This document shows, piece after piece, positions 11,838 through 50,682 of a DNA stretch of 64,000 nt. The translations under genes and the position numbers were made by a program. The notes beneath the pieces were generated by a model, which saw only the letters and a list, made by a program, of their open reading frames with translations, was not told where the DNA came from and did no database searches. Origin of the DNA: Flavobacteriales bacterium (GTDB taxonomy: Bacteria; Bacteroidota; Bacteroidia; Flavobacteriales_E; Vicingaceae); assembly GCA_015075325.1 (NCBI GenBank), contig JABTUP010000002.1, forward strand, positions 1-64,000, given 5' to 3'. Positions within the stretch are counted from its first letter, which is position 1; each line of letters opens with the position of its first letter.

Positions 11838-11867
11838 GCCCCTCCTTCCCCCTAGAAGGTGGAGGGT
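11838..11867. repeat. GC-rich palindromic intergenic element (copy 1)
   Basis: The stretch gcccctccttccccctagaag then gtggagggt forms a hairpin-capable C-rich/G-rich pair, far more GC-rich than its surroundings. Related copies are at 11930, 19815, 35774, 44840, 44957, 47820 and 47920. Confidence 0.7.
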
Positions 11868-44951: not shown

Positions 44952-46103
44952 CTACGAAGCTCCTCCTTCGGAGGGGTTGGGGAGGCTCTCACGACTCACA
45001 CTTAATATTATTCCTATTGCCAAACAAGTAAACCAAATAGATGTTCCTCCCATACTTACCAATGGCAACGGTTGTCCGGTTACAGGAAACAAGTTAACTG
45101 CTACTGCCATATTTATTAATGCTTGAAACACCAAACTAAAAGACAGACCAATGGCTAACAGTGAGCCAAAAGTGTTTTCTGCTTTCGAAGCAATTCTAAT
45201 ACCCCTAAAAAATAAGATGAGGTATAAAAATATTACTACAATTCCACCAATAGTACCATATTCCTCTAATATAATTGCATAAATAAAATCGGAATAAGGA
45301 TGTGGTAGAAAATTACGCTGTGTACTACCTCCAGGTCCTTTACCAATAACACCACCCGTTGCAATAGCAATTTTAGCTTGCTCTGCCTGGTAATTAGCAT
45401 CTTTTGAGCCACCACCTTGGAAGGTTTCAATACGTTTTGCCCAGGTTCCCATCCTTGGTAACAAATCGGGGTTCGATTTTCCGATAAGCAAAAGTATTAG
45501 TAAAGTCCCTACGCCAATTCCAATTAGAGATAAAATATACTTGAGATTTATTCGACCAATAAACATAATAATTAAGCTTGTAACAAAAAGCATTGCTGCG
45601 GTTGAAAAGTTAGCGGGCAATATTAAACCACAAACCAACATTACAGGAATCATAATTGGTACAAATGCATGTTTAAAATCTTTTATTTGATCTTGATGTT
45701 TTGATAAAAACCGAGCTAAATACATAATTAAAGCTAACTTGGCTAAATCGGAAGTTTGAAAAGTTTGATTAATTACAGGGATAACTAACCATCGGCTAGC
45801 CTCATTAACATTTGCCCCAGTAATAAGTGTAAGTAGAAGTAGAGGTATTGATAGAAATAAAGCTATTTGAGATATTCTGGAATAATATTTAAATTTTAGG
45901 TTGTGAGCCAGCACCATCAAACCCAAGCCAACTACTAAAATTATGGCATGTTTAAATAGATAATAAAACGTATCGCCATCTTTATATTTATAAGCAAGTG
46001 TAACTATAGAACTGTAAACCGCTAATAACGACAAAATGGATAGTAACAACACTACTACCCATATACCTTTATCGCCTTTTAAGTATTTTTCTATGAAACC
46101 CAC
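44952..46103 (-). CDS. ftsW: Lipid II polymerase FtsW (SEDS family)
   Basis: The 383-residue membrane protein has about ten helices. SEDS motifs include WLVIPVINQTFQTSDLAKLALIMYLA-like segments (~105-130), TGGVIGKGPGGSTQRNFLP (~250-268), HPYSDFIYAIILEEYGTIGG (~268-287, with the catalytic region Asp/Glu), and NMAVAVNLFPVTGQPLPLVS (~331-350). It polymerises septal glycan with FtsI in the inner membrane. The final ~11 residues (RESLPNPSEGGAS) come from a GC-rich palindromic element and lie after the last helix. It is followed by murG (45 nt) and preceded by the small MurD-C-like gene (8 nt). Confidence 0.96.
   Translation of the reverse strand: MGFIEKYLKGDKGIWVVVLLLSILSLLAVYSSIVTLAYKYKDGDTFYYLFKHAIILVVGLGLMVLAHNLKFKYYSRISQIALFLSIPLLLLTLITGANVNEASRWLVIPVINQTFQTSDLAKLALIMYLARFLSKHQDQIKDFKHAFVPIMIPVMLVCGLILPANFSTAAMLFVTSLIIMFIGRINLKYILSLIGIGVGTLLILLLIGKSNPDLLPRMGTWAKRIETFQGGGSKDANYQAEQAKIAIATGGVIGKGPGGSTQRNFLPHPYSDFIYAIILEEYGTIGGIVVIFLYLILFFRGIRIASKAENTFGSLLAIGLSFSLVFQALINMAVAVNLFPVTGQPLPLVSMGGTSIWFTCLAIGIILSVSRESLPNPSEGGAS
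44957..44987. repeat. GC-rich palindromic element in the ftsW 3' end (copy 6)
   Basis: gaagctcctccttcggaggg followed by gttggggaggc forms a CCTCC-TTC-GGAGG hairpin and encodes the C-terminal SLPNPSEGGAS of FtsW, just before its TAG stop (44952-44954). Confidence 0.8.
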
Positions 46104-46111
46104 TATTTTGC

Positions 46112-46483
46112 TTACTCTACGATTAAACTCAACAAATCAGAAATGCTTTGTCCTGACGAAATACTTGAAATGTAAACGATATTTTTTGAAAAACTAGAAC
46201 TATTTAATGCTATTTGAGTAGCATCTTTTAAACTAATTGCTGAAATAATAAACACATTTCTGATATCCTTAGTTTTTGCATGAAGTTGATTTACATTTTT
46301 ACCAATTACAATTACTTGATTGATACTTTCTCCCAATAAATGAGAAGCTTTTTCGAAAAAGACAGACCAATCATCGTGAGCAAGAATAATAGCACATTTA
46401 TTCTTATCACCAATATTATCTACAAAACCTTCGAGGGTTGCATAGTAAAAAGATTGTCCGTGAGTATCAATTAGTTTTTCCAT
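46112..46483 (-). CDS. Small protein resembling a degenerate MurD C-terminal domain
   Basis: The 123-residue cytosolic protein lies between murD (2-nt gap upstream) and ftsW (8-nt gap downstream), so it is translated from the cell-wall operon. Read against the adjacent MurD it aligns along the C-terminal domain: FYYATLEGF with WYALESF, AIILAHDDW with WVVGGVDKG, QVIVIGKNVNQLHA with KAIVCLGKDNAKIHA, ISAISLKDATQIAL with VDADSAESAVRLAY, and NIVYISSISSG with DTVLLSPACAS. The DKG and SPACASFD residues of real MurD, which position substrate, are lost, so it is unlikely to be a ligase; a structural or regulatory role is possible. No central ATP-binding domain is present. Confidence 0.75.
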   Translation of the reverse strand: MEKLIDTHGQSFYYATLEGFVDNIGDKNKCAIILAHDDWSVFFEKASHLLGESINQVIVIGKNVNQLHAKTKDIRNVFIISAISLKDATQIALNSSSFSKNIVYISSISSGQSISDLLSLIVE

Positions 46484-46485
46484 AA

Positions 46486-47886
46486 TTACAAGCGTTTAAC
46501 AGCTGCTTTAAATTGATGACCTCTATCTTCGTAGTTTTCAAATAAATCGAAACTAGCACAAGCTGGAGAAAGCAAAACTGTATCGCCACTTCTTCCTAAA
46601 CTATAAGCCAATCGAACTGCTGATTCAGCTGAATCGGCATCAACTATAACTTCAATAATGTCTTCAAAAGCTGCATGAATTTTAGCATTGTCTTTTCCTA
46701 AACAAACAATAGCTTTTACTTTTTCAGCAACTAGTTCTTTTAACATTTCATAGTCGTTACCTTTATCAACGCCACCAACTACCCATATTACAGGGTGTTG
46801 AAACGATTCTAATGCATACCATGTTGAATTTACATTTGTTGCTTTCGAATCATTGATAAAATCAATACCATGAATTTTGGCAACAAATTCTAAACGGTGT
46901 TCTACATTTTGAAAATCAGAAAGACTTTCTCTGATAATTTCCTTTTTTAATTCTAAAACTCGTCCTGCAATGCCTGAAGCCATAGAATTGTACAAGTTGT
47001 GCTTTCCTTGTAGTGCTAAACTTTGTAATGTCATTTCAAATAATTTATTAGTTGTGTTTATAATTAGTTTATCGTTTGCTATGTATGCACCACGCTCAAG
47101 CGTGATGGCTTTTTTAATACTGAATGGGTGTTTCTGTGCTTTTATTTCTGTTTTTTTCAAATACTCTACAATAACCTCGTCGTCCTCGCAATAAATAAAA
47201 TGACACTGCTCATCTTGGTTTTGAAGAATTCTAAATTTTGAAGCCGCATAATTTTCAAATTTGTAATCATACCTATCTAAATGGTCGGGAGTAATGTTTA
47301 GCAAAATGGCAATGTCCACTTTAAACTTGAACATTCCATCGAGCTGAAAACTACTTAACTCCAACACATAAATATCTTTGTCATCAACAGCCACTTGTTT
47401 TGCTAAACTTTCTCCAACATTTCCTGCCAACCCAACATTTAACCCTGCTTTTTTTAGCATGTGATAGGTTAACATGGTTGTAGTTGTTTTACCGTTACTT
47501 CCTGTAATTCCTATAAACTTTGCTTTGGTATATCTACCCGCAAATTCTATTTCAGAAATCACTTCAATGCCCTTTTCTTTTAATTGTATAATTAAAGGCA
47601 CTTTATCAGGAATACCAGGGCTTTTAACAACAGTTGTAGCTGTTAAAATTTTAGCTTCAGTATGCTTTTCTTCTTCCCACTCAACACCAATACTTGTAAG
47701 AACGTTTTTATATTTTTCTTTAATTTTTCCCTTGTCTGAAACAAACACTTCAAACCCTTTTTGTTGTGCCAAAATAGCTGCTCCAACACCACTTTCTCCT
47801 CCGCCTAAAATGACAATTAAAGCCCCTCCCAACCTCCCCGAAGGGGAGGAGTTTCCACCCCTCATATCCAAATTATCTTTCGCCAC
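46486..47886 (-). CDS. murD: UDP-MurNAc-L-alanine:D-glutamate ligase MurD
   Basis: The 466-residue ligase adds D-Glu to UDP-MurNAc-L-Ala. It has VILGGGESGVGAAILAQQKG (Rossmann loop, ~25-44), the ATP-binding GITGSNGKTTTTMLTYHML (~126-144), ELSSFQLDGM and NITPDHLDRY (Mur central domain), IDFINDSKATNVNSTWYALE (~349-368), WVVGGVDKGNDYEML, and LLSPACASFDLFENYEDRG (~436-454). Residues ~8-22 (MRGGNSSPSGRLGGA) are encoded by a GC-rich palindromic repeat, so the family-typical N-terminus MAK...VILGGG is split by an insertion. It lies between mraY and the MurD-C-like gene. Confidence 0.96.
   Translation of the reverse strand: MAKDNLDMRGGNSSPSGRLGGALIVILGGGESGVGAAILAQQKGFEVFVSDKGKIKEKYKNVLTSIGVEWEEEKHTEAKILTATTVVKSPGIPDKVPLIIQLKEKGIEVISEIEFAGRYTKAKFIGITGSNGKTTTTMLTYHMLKKAGLNVGLAGNVGESLAKQVAVDDKDIYVLELSSFQLDGMFKFKVDIAILLNITPDHLDRYDYKFENYAASKFRILQNQDEQCHFIYCEDDEVIVEYLKKTEIKAQKHPFSIKKAITLERGAYIANDKLIINTTNKLFEMTLQSLALQGKHNLYNSMASGIAGRVLELKKEIIRESLSDFQNVEHRLEFVAKIHGIDFINDSKATNVNSTWYALESFQHPVIWVVGGVDKGNDYEMLKELVAEKVKAIVCLGKDNAKIHAAFEDIIEVIVDADSAESAVRLAYSLGRSGDTVLLSPACASFDLFENYEDRGHQFKAAVKRL
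47820..47850. repeat. GC-rich palindromic element in the murD 5' end (copy 7)
   Basis: aagcccctcccaacctcccc followed by gaaggggagga forms a hairpin (CTCCCC-GAA-GGGGAG) and is translated in frame as residues ~13-22 of MurD. Confidence 0.8.
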
Positions 47887-47951: not shown

Positions 47952-49205
47952 TTATCTAATTTTAAGTGTTACGAATGTTAACAATGCCAACATAATTCCA
48001 ACAATCCAAAACCTCGCAACAATTTTTGCTTCGTGCATATTTTTTTTCTGGAAATGATGATGAAGCGGAGCCATTAAAAACACTCTTCTACCTTCTCCGT
48101 ATTTCTTTTTGGTATATTTGAAATACCCAACCTGTATCATTACTGATAAATTTTCTACCAAGAATATTCCACACAATAATGGAATCATTAATTCTTTTCG
48201 AACGGCTAGAGAGAATACCGCTATAATACCACCCAAAGCAAGGCTACCGGTATCGCCCATAAACACTTGAGCGGGATAAGAATTGTACCACAAGAACCCA
48301 ACACATGCACCAACAAAAGCTGCTATATAAATTACCAATTCGCCAGTATTTGGAATGTACATGATGTTTAAGTAATCAGCAAAAACAGTATTACCCGATA
48401 CGTAAGCAAAAACAGCAAGTGTAACACCAATTATTGCAGAAGTTCCTGTTGCTAATCCATCTAAACCATCGGTCATGTTGGCTCCATTTGAAACCGCTGT
48501 AATAATGATGATTACAATAATAATAAATACAATACCACCAACTAAATATGCATTTTCGCCAGCCCAACTGGTTAGTCGTGCATAATTAAACTCATTATTT
48601 TTAACAAAAGGAATGGTAGTAACTGTAGATTTTACTTCTTCCCATTTATAGTTTTCAACCACTTTCTGAACCACATCGTGTTTAATTTCATAGCTCACAT
48701 GAGTAGGAGCATCAGCCTGATAAACTTTTTGTTTTACCACTACATCTTCATTAAAATAAAGTACAGTTCCAACAACAATTCCAACAGCAATTTGTCCCAT
48801 AACTTTAAACTTACCTGCCAAACCTTGTTTGTTTTTCTTGAAAACCTTTATATAATCATCAATAAAACCAATGGTTCCAAGCATAACCGTAGAAACCAAC
48901 ATTAAAATAATGTAGATGTTATCTAATCGAGCAAACAACAAGGTTGGTATTAATATAGATGCCAAAATAATTAGCCCACCCATGGTTGGTGTTCCTTGTT
49001 TTTTCATTTGTCCTTCAAGACCTAAGTCGCGAACAATTTCGCCAACTTGCAACAGTTGTAAACGCTGAATAATACGTTTACCAATAATCATGGAGATGAT
49101 TAGCGATACAATAACAGCCAATGCAGCTCTAAAAGAGATGTATTCAAAAAGACCAGCTCCAGGCACATCTAATTCATTTAAATATTGAAATAAGTAGTAC
49201 AACAT
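47952..49205 (-). CDS. mraY: Phospho-MurNAc-pentapeptide transferase MraY
   Basis: The 417-residue integral membrane enzyme makes lipid I. It has ~10 helices, with the catalytic aspartates visible in [20 protein letters not shown] (~108-127) and [17 protein letters not shown] (~249-265), plus [17 protein letters not shown] (~317-333) and [11 protein letters not shown] (~380-390). It is longer than the ~360-residue proteobacterial enzyme because of a ~60-residue periplasmic/extracytoplasmic insertion ([20 protein letters not shown], ~157-225), a feature shared by Bacteroidota MraY. It follows murE by 7 nt. Confidence 0.97.
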
Positions 49206-49212
49206 CTATTTC

Positions 49213-50682
49213 TTAATTTGATTTATTAAACATTTCAAAGGTTTCGGATAACACATTTAAATCATCAAATGGATATTTTACTCCTTTTATTTCTTGGTAT
49301 TTTTCATGTCCTTTGCCTGCAACAAGAATAATATCTCCGTCGTTTGCCAAAGAACAAGCAGTTTTAATAGCTTCTTCTCTATTGGTAATTGCCAATACTT
49401 TTTTATAATGTACAGCCTGAACTCCAGCTTTCATTTCTGCGATAATTTCATCAGGATTCTCACTTCTTGGATTATCTGAAGTAAGTATAACTTTGTTGCT
49501 ATTATCACACGCTATTGCAGCCATTATTGGTCGTTTAGATTTATCTCTATCACCACCGCAGCCAACAACCGTTATTACTTGTTCATTTCCAGTTCGTATT
49601 TCATTGATGGTGTTTAGTACATTTTTCAATGCGTCGGGAGTGTGAGCATAATCAACAATACCAGCAACATTGTTTGCAGATTTAACATATTGAAATCTTC
49701 CATCTACAGCTGTTAGTTTGCTAATAGAAGTTAATACATTGAGTTTATCCATGCCCAACAAATCAGCAACACTATAAATAGCTAACATGTTATAAGCATT
49801 AAATCCTCCAATCAATTTTGTCCAAACTTCATTACCTGAAATATTTAAAAGCATACCACTAAAGTCGTTTTCAACTACTTTACAGGTATAATCCGCCATG
49901 TTTTTTAAAGCATAAGTGTATTTTTTTGCTTTGGTGTTTTGCAACATTACCAAACCGTTTTTATCATCTTTGTTTACTAAAGCAAAGGCATTTGGGCTTA
50001 GTTCATCAAAAAATTGTTTTTTAGCTTTTATGTATTCATCAAAAGTTTTGTGATAATCTAAATGATCATGAGTAATATTGGTAAAAACAGCCCCTGTAAA
50101 TTCAACATCGGCAACTCTATTTTGATGAATGGCATGCGAACTAACCTCCATAAAACAATATTCACAACCTTCGTTTACCATTTCCCTAAGCAGCTTATTC
50201 AACTGAATAGCATCGGGAGTGGTATGTGTTGCTGGAATTGCTTCTTTTCCAATTTTATTTACTACTGTAGAAAGTAAGCCAGTTTTAAAACCTAAATCGG
50301 TAAACAAGTCGTACAACAATGTTGCTGTAGTAGTTTTTCCGTTAGTTCCTGTAATGCCTACTAACTTTAATTCGCTTGATGGGTTATTATAAAAATTAGC
50401 TGCAATAATTCCTAAAGCTTTACTGCTGTTTTTAACCTCAACATAAGTAATGTTTGGTTGAATATGTTGAGGTAAAATTTCGCAAACAATTGCTATTGCT
50501 CCTTTTGATATTGCTGTATCAATAAATTGATGCCCATCAACTTGAGTTCCAGAAACAGCAACAAACAATGAGTGTTCAACAACCAATCGAGAATCGAAGC
50601 AAATAGATGCAACATCTATAGCTGTTGAACCAACTACTTTTTCTATCGATGTTTTATATAATATGTCTTTTAACAATTGCAT
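49213..50682 (-). CDS. murE: UDP-MurNAc-tripeptide synthetase MurE, meso-DAP type
   Basis: The 489-residue ligase has the ATP loop GITGTNGKTTTATLLYDLF (~109-127), THTTPDAIQLNKLLREM, FMEVSSHAIHQNRVADVEF (~161-180), FTNITHDHLDYHKTFDEYI (~186-204), DYAHTPDALKNVL and the DNPRSENPDEII motif (~411-422). DNPR in place of D(D/N)P(N/A) is the signature of diaminopimelate-adding enzymes, so the cell wall should contain meso-DAP. Its start codon overlaps the ftsI stop by 1 nt (50682), indicating coupling. Confidence 0.97.
   Translation of the reverse strand: MQLLKDILYKTSIEKVVGSTAIDVASICFDSRLVVEHSLFVAVSGTQVDGHQFIDTAISKGAIAIVCEILPQHIQPNITYVEVKNSSKALGIIAANFYNNPSSELKLVGITGTNGKTTTATLLYDLFTDLGFKTGLLSTVVNKIGKEAIPATHTTPDAIQLNKLLREMVNEGCEYCFMEVSSHAIHQNRVADVEFTGAVFTNITHDHLDYHKTFDEYIKAKKQFFDELSPNAFALVNKDDKNGLVMLQNTKAKKYTYALKNMADYTCKVVENDFSGMLLNISGNEVWTKLIGGFNAYNMLAIYSVADLLGMDKLNVLTSISKLTAVDGRFQYVKSANNVAGIVDYAHTPDALKNVLNTINEIRTGNEQVITVVGCGGDRDKSKRPIMAAIACDNSNKVILTSDNPRSENPDEIIAEMKAGVQAVHYKKVLAITNREEAIKTACSLANDGDIILVAGKGHEKYQEIKGVKYPFDDLNVLSETFEMFNKSN

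Follow-up and report, generated by a model that had tools for sequence, protein, structure and literature searches.

A small gene between murD and ftsW in a Flavobacteriales bacterium encodes a degenerate MurD C-terminal domain, probably derived from an ancient duplicate in Bacteroidia

In a Flavobacteriales bacterium, a 123-residue protein encoded between murD and ftsW, hereafter X, is homologous to the C-terminal domain (C-domain) of MurD, a relationship that is well supported. We favor, with some reserve, the reading that X is the decayed product of an ancient MurD C-domain duplicate and that the duplicate was retained as a non-catalytic accessory protein. The window, i.e. the whole 64,000-nt stretch of DNA that was analyzed, contains a cluster with the gene order mraY, murD, X, ftsW, murG. 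The preliminary description had placed a small gene between murD and ftsW, and the open reading frame indeed occupies exactly 46112–46483: it starts 2 nt past the murD stop (46486) and ends 8 nt ahead of the ftsW GTG (46103). The features referred to below are as follows.

46112..46483, minus strand: X, open reading frame of 123 residues with an ATG start, a degenerate stand-alone MurD C-domain protein
46442..46483, minus strand: X residues 1–14, N-terminal hairpin of two strands (DSSP of the model)
46208..46357, minus strand: X residues 43–92, direct sequence similarity to the MurD C-domain (local alignment)
46486..47886, minus strand: murD, full-length (TIGR01087, E 1e-123; PDB alignments)
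44952..46103, minus strand: ftsW, the next operon gene (PF01098, E 1.9e-73)
47952..49205, minus strand: mraY, upstream cluster gene, assigned by position and sequence (list of open reading frames)
49213..50682, minus strand: murE, assigned by position and a Mur ligase C-domain match (PF02875, E 8.3e-34)

The neighboring murD retains the catalytic motifs NDSKAT, DKG and SPACASF. The MraY of the window (47952–49205) has 417 residues, as do, roughly, its relatives, and presumably carries an insertion of ~50–60 residues relative to the usual MraY length. The window, which is 34% GC, also contains a GC-rich palindromic repeat (like CCAACCTCCCCGAAGGGGAGG) at 11842, 11935, 44856, 44963, 47836 and 47925, and where a copy lies inside a coding region, at the 5’ end in murD and murG and at the 3’ end in ftsW, it adds a tail to the peptide, for example SSPSGRLGGA or LPNPSEGGA.

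The fold of X was analyzed with two AF2 models, one of X itself (alignment A1, pLDDT 84.4) and one of a relative that belongs to a different genus (alignment A4, pLDDT 85.7). Alignment A4 contains no sequence of the genus to which the window belongs (g1) and has two sequences in common with A1, and neither alignment contains MurD. The order of strands and helices is identical in both models, and for both of them the top seven PDB entries in VIA-align are all MurD C-domains, with Z scores of 11.9–10.7 for the X model and 12.6–11.8 for the model of the relative. The X model aligns with 7ti7 over 121 residues (Z 11.9, rmsd 3.0), and the model of the relative aligns with 4buc over 113 residues (Z 12.6, rmsd 2.7). 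The next structural matches are other Mur ligases and FolC (Z at most 9.8 for the X model and 10.3 for that of the relative), with unrelated folds scoring lower. The structural alignments start at model residue 1, which in our own reading of the register would sit just after the hinge His-Arg of MurD, about where the MurD strand 332–344 begins. As modeled, X carries the MurD C-domain fold across the whole domain.

Direct sequence comparison gives a narrower match. The local alignment of X with the adjacent MurD C-domain scores 68, which none of 2000 shuffles equaled, and the part that is significant by sequence alone is X residues 43–92; the whole-length match proposed in the preliminary description thus stands for the fold and shrinks to this segment for the sequence. 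The pairwise similarity peaks in the window’s own genome: among 21 X homologues, the score against the MurD C-domain was matched by at most 4 of 400 shuffles in only five, and most homologues were insignificant, so that the claim of homology is carried by the profile and fold evidence. X has no match in Pfam or NCBIfam. With PF02875, neither X at E values up to 10 nor nine relatives at E values up to 1 gave a match, and X was not among the matches of a genome-wide PF02875 search. The sequence-profile search of the PDB with alignment A1 yielded nothing beyond repeat artefacts (Tako8 propeller) and some weak matches, and a profile search of genome contigs with X alone found no relatives. Frames of ~344 residues with matches near residues 24–77 were set aside: those that were read (L011 and L015) encode an unrelated protein, which we take to be MreB-like.

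Better-preserved relatives of X belong to a family of stand-alone MurD C-domains (SA), first found directly after murD when relatives were searched with MurD. SA is a separate gene between murD and ftsW, mostly encoding 155–195 residues. We surveyed 296 Bacteroidia genomes from 72 families and followed up those with at least two MurD matches; SA occurs in at least 19 of the 72 sampled families and is well preserved in about 50 of the 296 genomes. A profile scan with the SA alignment yielded 58 named contigs, nearly all of them metagenome bins, and the order murD, SA, ftsW is found in 57 of these. Since the named contigs carry the labels Bacteroidetes, Bacteroidia or Flavobacteriales, we refer to the class as Bacteroidia. 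Elsewhere in the phylum SA was not seen: ~187 genomes from its other classes have MurD only, save two with a second match. All 28 SA proteins tested match both PF02875 and the MurD model TIGR01087, the first member spanning positions 287–440 of the 441 in the latter. We found no curated model for SA, and the open-licence papers searched do not describe a MurD C-domain that stands alone.

In a tree of 58 SA and 66 MurD C-domains, a single branch (93/94) splits the two groups, and 93% of bootstrap trees agree. This topology fits a single old duplication, a reading that is strong but not final because some SA branches are long. The tandem copy of the MurD C-domain suggested earlier is thereby backed by profile, fold, position and intact relatives; the duplication, however, is not a recent, local one, because SA splits from MurD on one branch class-wide and is preserved in about 50 of 296 genomes.

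The survey also turned up other arrangements. In one genome (G319, L144:664–1738), two stand-alone MurD C-domain genes form a tandem pair between murD and ftsW. Another MurD-C-like gene, dispersed and of ~180–220 residues, is located away from murD in families f4, f44 and f40 (L156:3783–4322, L157:3195–3833, L158:3371–3988, L159:2621–3280 and L160:3617–4156) and adjoins an aldehyde-dehydrogenase-like gene in the f4 and f44 genomes. At L161:3264–5894, an 876-residue open reading frame combines an N-terminal region resembling a MurL-type domain with a second MurD-like ligase, which makes up its C-terminal half. A fused MurD-SA protein, suspected from open frames of 601 residues in f48, was rejected, as these proved to be N-terminal frame extensions.

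The X-family profile matches SA with E 1.6e-6 (hhalign score 43.6) and the MurD C-domain with E 6.5e-4 (score 28.2), the latter being the profile comparison that the preliminary description had proposed as a check. In 100 column-shuffle controls, the best hhalign scores were 17.9 against SA and 22.3 against the MurD C-domain, and in seven of seven subsets SA outscored the MurD C-domain of the same genomes. In an FtsW tree, a quick tree with several weak branches, the X-bearing genera, or family f1, are placed among SA-bearing families. Because the profile prefers SA over the MurD C-domain, the shuffles score far lower and the FtsW tree places the lineage there, the best interpretation of X is an SA that has decayed in its lineage.

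To compare residues, we used E. coli MurD numbering via the PDB alignment. The C-domain of MurD rotates on the hinge loop Thr294–Glu304, which includes His301, Arg302 and Glu304 (PMC4816537), and work on MurD inhibitors shows contacts of Lys348, Thr321, Ser415 and Phe422 with the D-Glu part (PMC3527612). Among the 58 SA proteins, His301 and Glu304 are invariant and Arg302 is present in 34; Asn316 (57), Ser410 (56), Pro411 (58) and Arg425 (54) are likewise kept, the pocket residues Ser415 and Thr321 are found in 50 and 42, and Lys319 in 31. Lys348, in contrast, is absent from 50 of the 58 SA proteins and present in 64 of the 66 MurD proteins. The MurD proteins of SA-bearing genomes have a complete set of D-Glu-contacting residues, save two with His at Lys348. 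These two, both from family f9, had prompted the idea of mutual repair, with SA supplying the residues that MurD lost, which was rejected because f9 SA also lacks the lysine and the f12 MurD proteins are intact. SA has neither the ATP domain nor the UDP domain, and without the ATP domain it cannot ligate.

X has lost more. It covers the C-domain only, without the ATP-binding central domain and the UDP-binding N-domain, and DKG and SPACASF, whose absence had been pointed out in the preliminary description, are missing together with NDSKAT. The near-invariant SA features are also gone: the positions of His301 and Arg302 precede the start of X, and Ser-Pro 410–411 and Arg-Gly 425–426 are absent. 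By alignment, E2 of X alone of the invariant SA positions may match Glu304. Since the SA-invariant motifs are missing from X, we call it a degenerate descendant rather than a full member of SA, and the function of SA need not extend to it.

Conservation and dN/dS, also suggested earlier as a check, show that X is under purifying but relaxed selection and evolves several times faster than MurD. Three genera have X, and in 21 of their 24 genomes it is intact with a frame that is always open; its homologues sit between murD and ftsW wherever the locus was read, and Q10 and F12 are invariant in all 21. The dN/dS of X is 0.13–0.41, compared to 0.04–0.12 for MurD in the same pairs, i.e. about 2–5 times higher. 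X is lost in two genomes of genus g4 (G044 and G045) that are nested in the X clade and have a murD-ftsW gap of only 78–97 bp, and nine genera of family f1 have no gene between murD and ftsW; X is therefore not essential. Three genomes of other genera of the family (G018, G022 and G008) have a gene of 99–119 residues at the locus that is even more diverged. The earlier term "relic" is thus too simple, because X is open in 21 species at the above dN/dS, yet it has also been lost outright.

We propose the following course of events. The C-terminal domain of MurD would have been duplicated in tandem early in the class Bacteroidia, and the duplicate would have ceased catalysis, its central ATP-binding domain missing and Lys348 gone in most copies, while persisting as a separate protein from the murD-ftsW operon. 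The likeliest role of SA would be to bind MurD or the murD-ftsW membrane step as an accessory subunit without catalysis of its own, tuning or anchoring its target. Such an accessory role is suggested by the fact that SA has stayed in the operon with an invariant hinge and no substrate lysine. In the family of the window, SA would have decayed to X, keeping the fold and purifying selection, losing the hinge and pocket motifs and becoming dispensable in some relatives. The data show homology, position, domain architecture, lost catalytic residues and selection at the protein level; binding to MurD, any action on the pathway and the persistence of either in X are what we infer from them. X, lacking the hinge motif, may retain just a binding surface or may be disappearing, and a regulator that pairs with MurD, as put forward in the preliminary description, is a possible, candidate role for it.

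The most specific version of an accessory role is a decoy C-domain, in which SA docks on the central domain of MurD in place of the enzyme’s own mobile C-domain and blocks or paces closure, X having lost or changed this activity. The invariance of the hinge-loop residues His301 and Glu304 together with the loss of the D-Glu-binding Lys348 is in line with it, and inhibition of MurD by a protein partner has a precedent in MigC (PMC12208494), an Acinetobacter zinc GTPase that binds MurD and inhibits it; MigC, although also a protein regulator of MurD, is from an unrelated family and serves as an analogy only. We regard the decoy as possible but tentative, as Arg302, described as the handle for C-domain rotation (PMC4816537), is kept in only 34 of 58 SA proteins and the hinge His-Arg is wholly absent from X. 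Equally tentative is its extension to an unnamed class-wide family of dead, trans-acting MurD C-domains that would regulate MurD by such docking, with X as the most reduced living form.

It is somewhat doubtful that X is a functionless relic in decay: most genera of the family have no such gene or a shorter one, G044 and G045 have lost it, all motifs are gone and dN/dS is elevated, but the frame is open in 21 species, dN/dS is well below 1 and the N-terminal Q10 and F12 are conserved throughout. The pocket of SA could instead sense or sequester D-glutamate or the product of MurD, binding the ligand without catalysis, and Ser415 and Thr321, which contact the D-Glu mimic in MurD, are retained in most SA proteins; this is unlikely given that Lys348 is missing in 50 of 58, and X, from which all pocket motifs are gone, would be incapable of it. 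Finally, that X is an unrelated Rossmann-like protein merely adjoining murD is highly improbable: alpha/beta folds are common and X lacks a Pfam or NCBIfam match, but for both models the MurD C-domain ranks above other Mur ligases and unrelated folds, and the profile match to SA, at the same locus, is far above the shuffles.

The decayed accessory duplicate that we favor can be compared with known Mur ligase homologues. The C-terminal domain (PF02875, Mur_ligase_C) of MurD, the UDP-MurNAc-L-Ala:D-Glu ligase, has the same fold along the whole of X (Z 11.9 and 12.6) and clear sequence homology to the intact SA relatives; unlike MurD, X and SA are stand-alone and without UDP and ATP domains, X lacks NDSKAT, DKG and SPACASF, and most SA proteins lack Lys348. 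The plastid MurE-like subunit of the plastid-encoded RNA polymerase is a Mur ligase homologue used in a structural role. It is among the fold matches (8ras_Q, Z 8.3–8.6), but as it belongs to plastids and acts in transcription, it is an analogy only. MurT of the MurT/GatD amidotransferase is also a Mur ligase homologue whose C-domain matches the X models (Z 9–10), and it works in a two-protein complex of peptidoglycan precursor chemistry; unlike X, it keeps the ATP-binding domain and is catalytic, and its match is weaker than that of MurD.

The gene cluster that contains the murD-ftsW stretch is among the best studied in bacteria, and by these searches the stretch holds an extra conserved gene without a name or model. 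The stages in the decay of one domain are visible here, from 57% identity to MurD down to the fold-only similarity of X. A non-catalytic copy of a MurD domain, kept across much of a class while its substrate lysine was lost, would amount to a natural experiment on the workings of the mobile MurD C-domain. Because its better-preserved copies are catalytically disabled yet kept by selection, the SA/X gene has probably been overlooked as a helper or regulator in cell-wall synthesis, and SA may be a built-in regulator of an antibacterial target.
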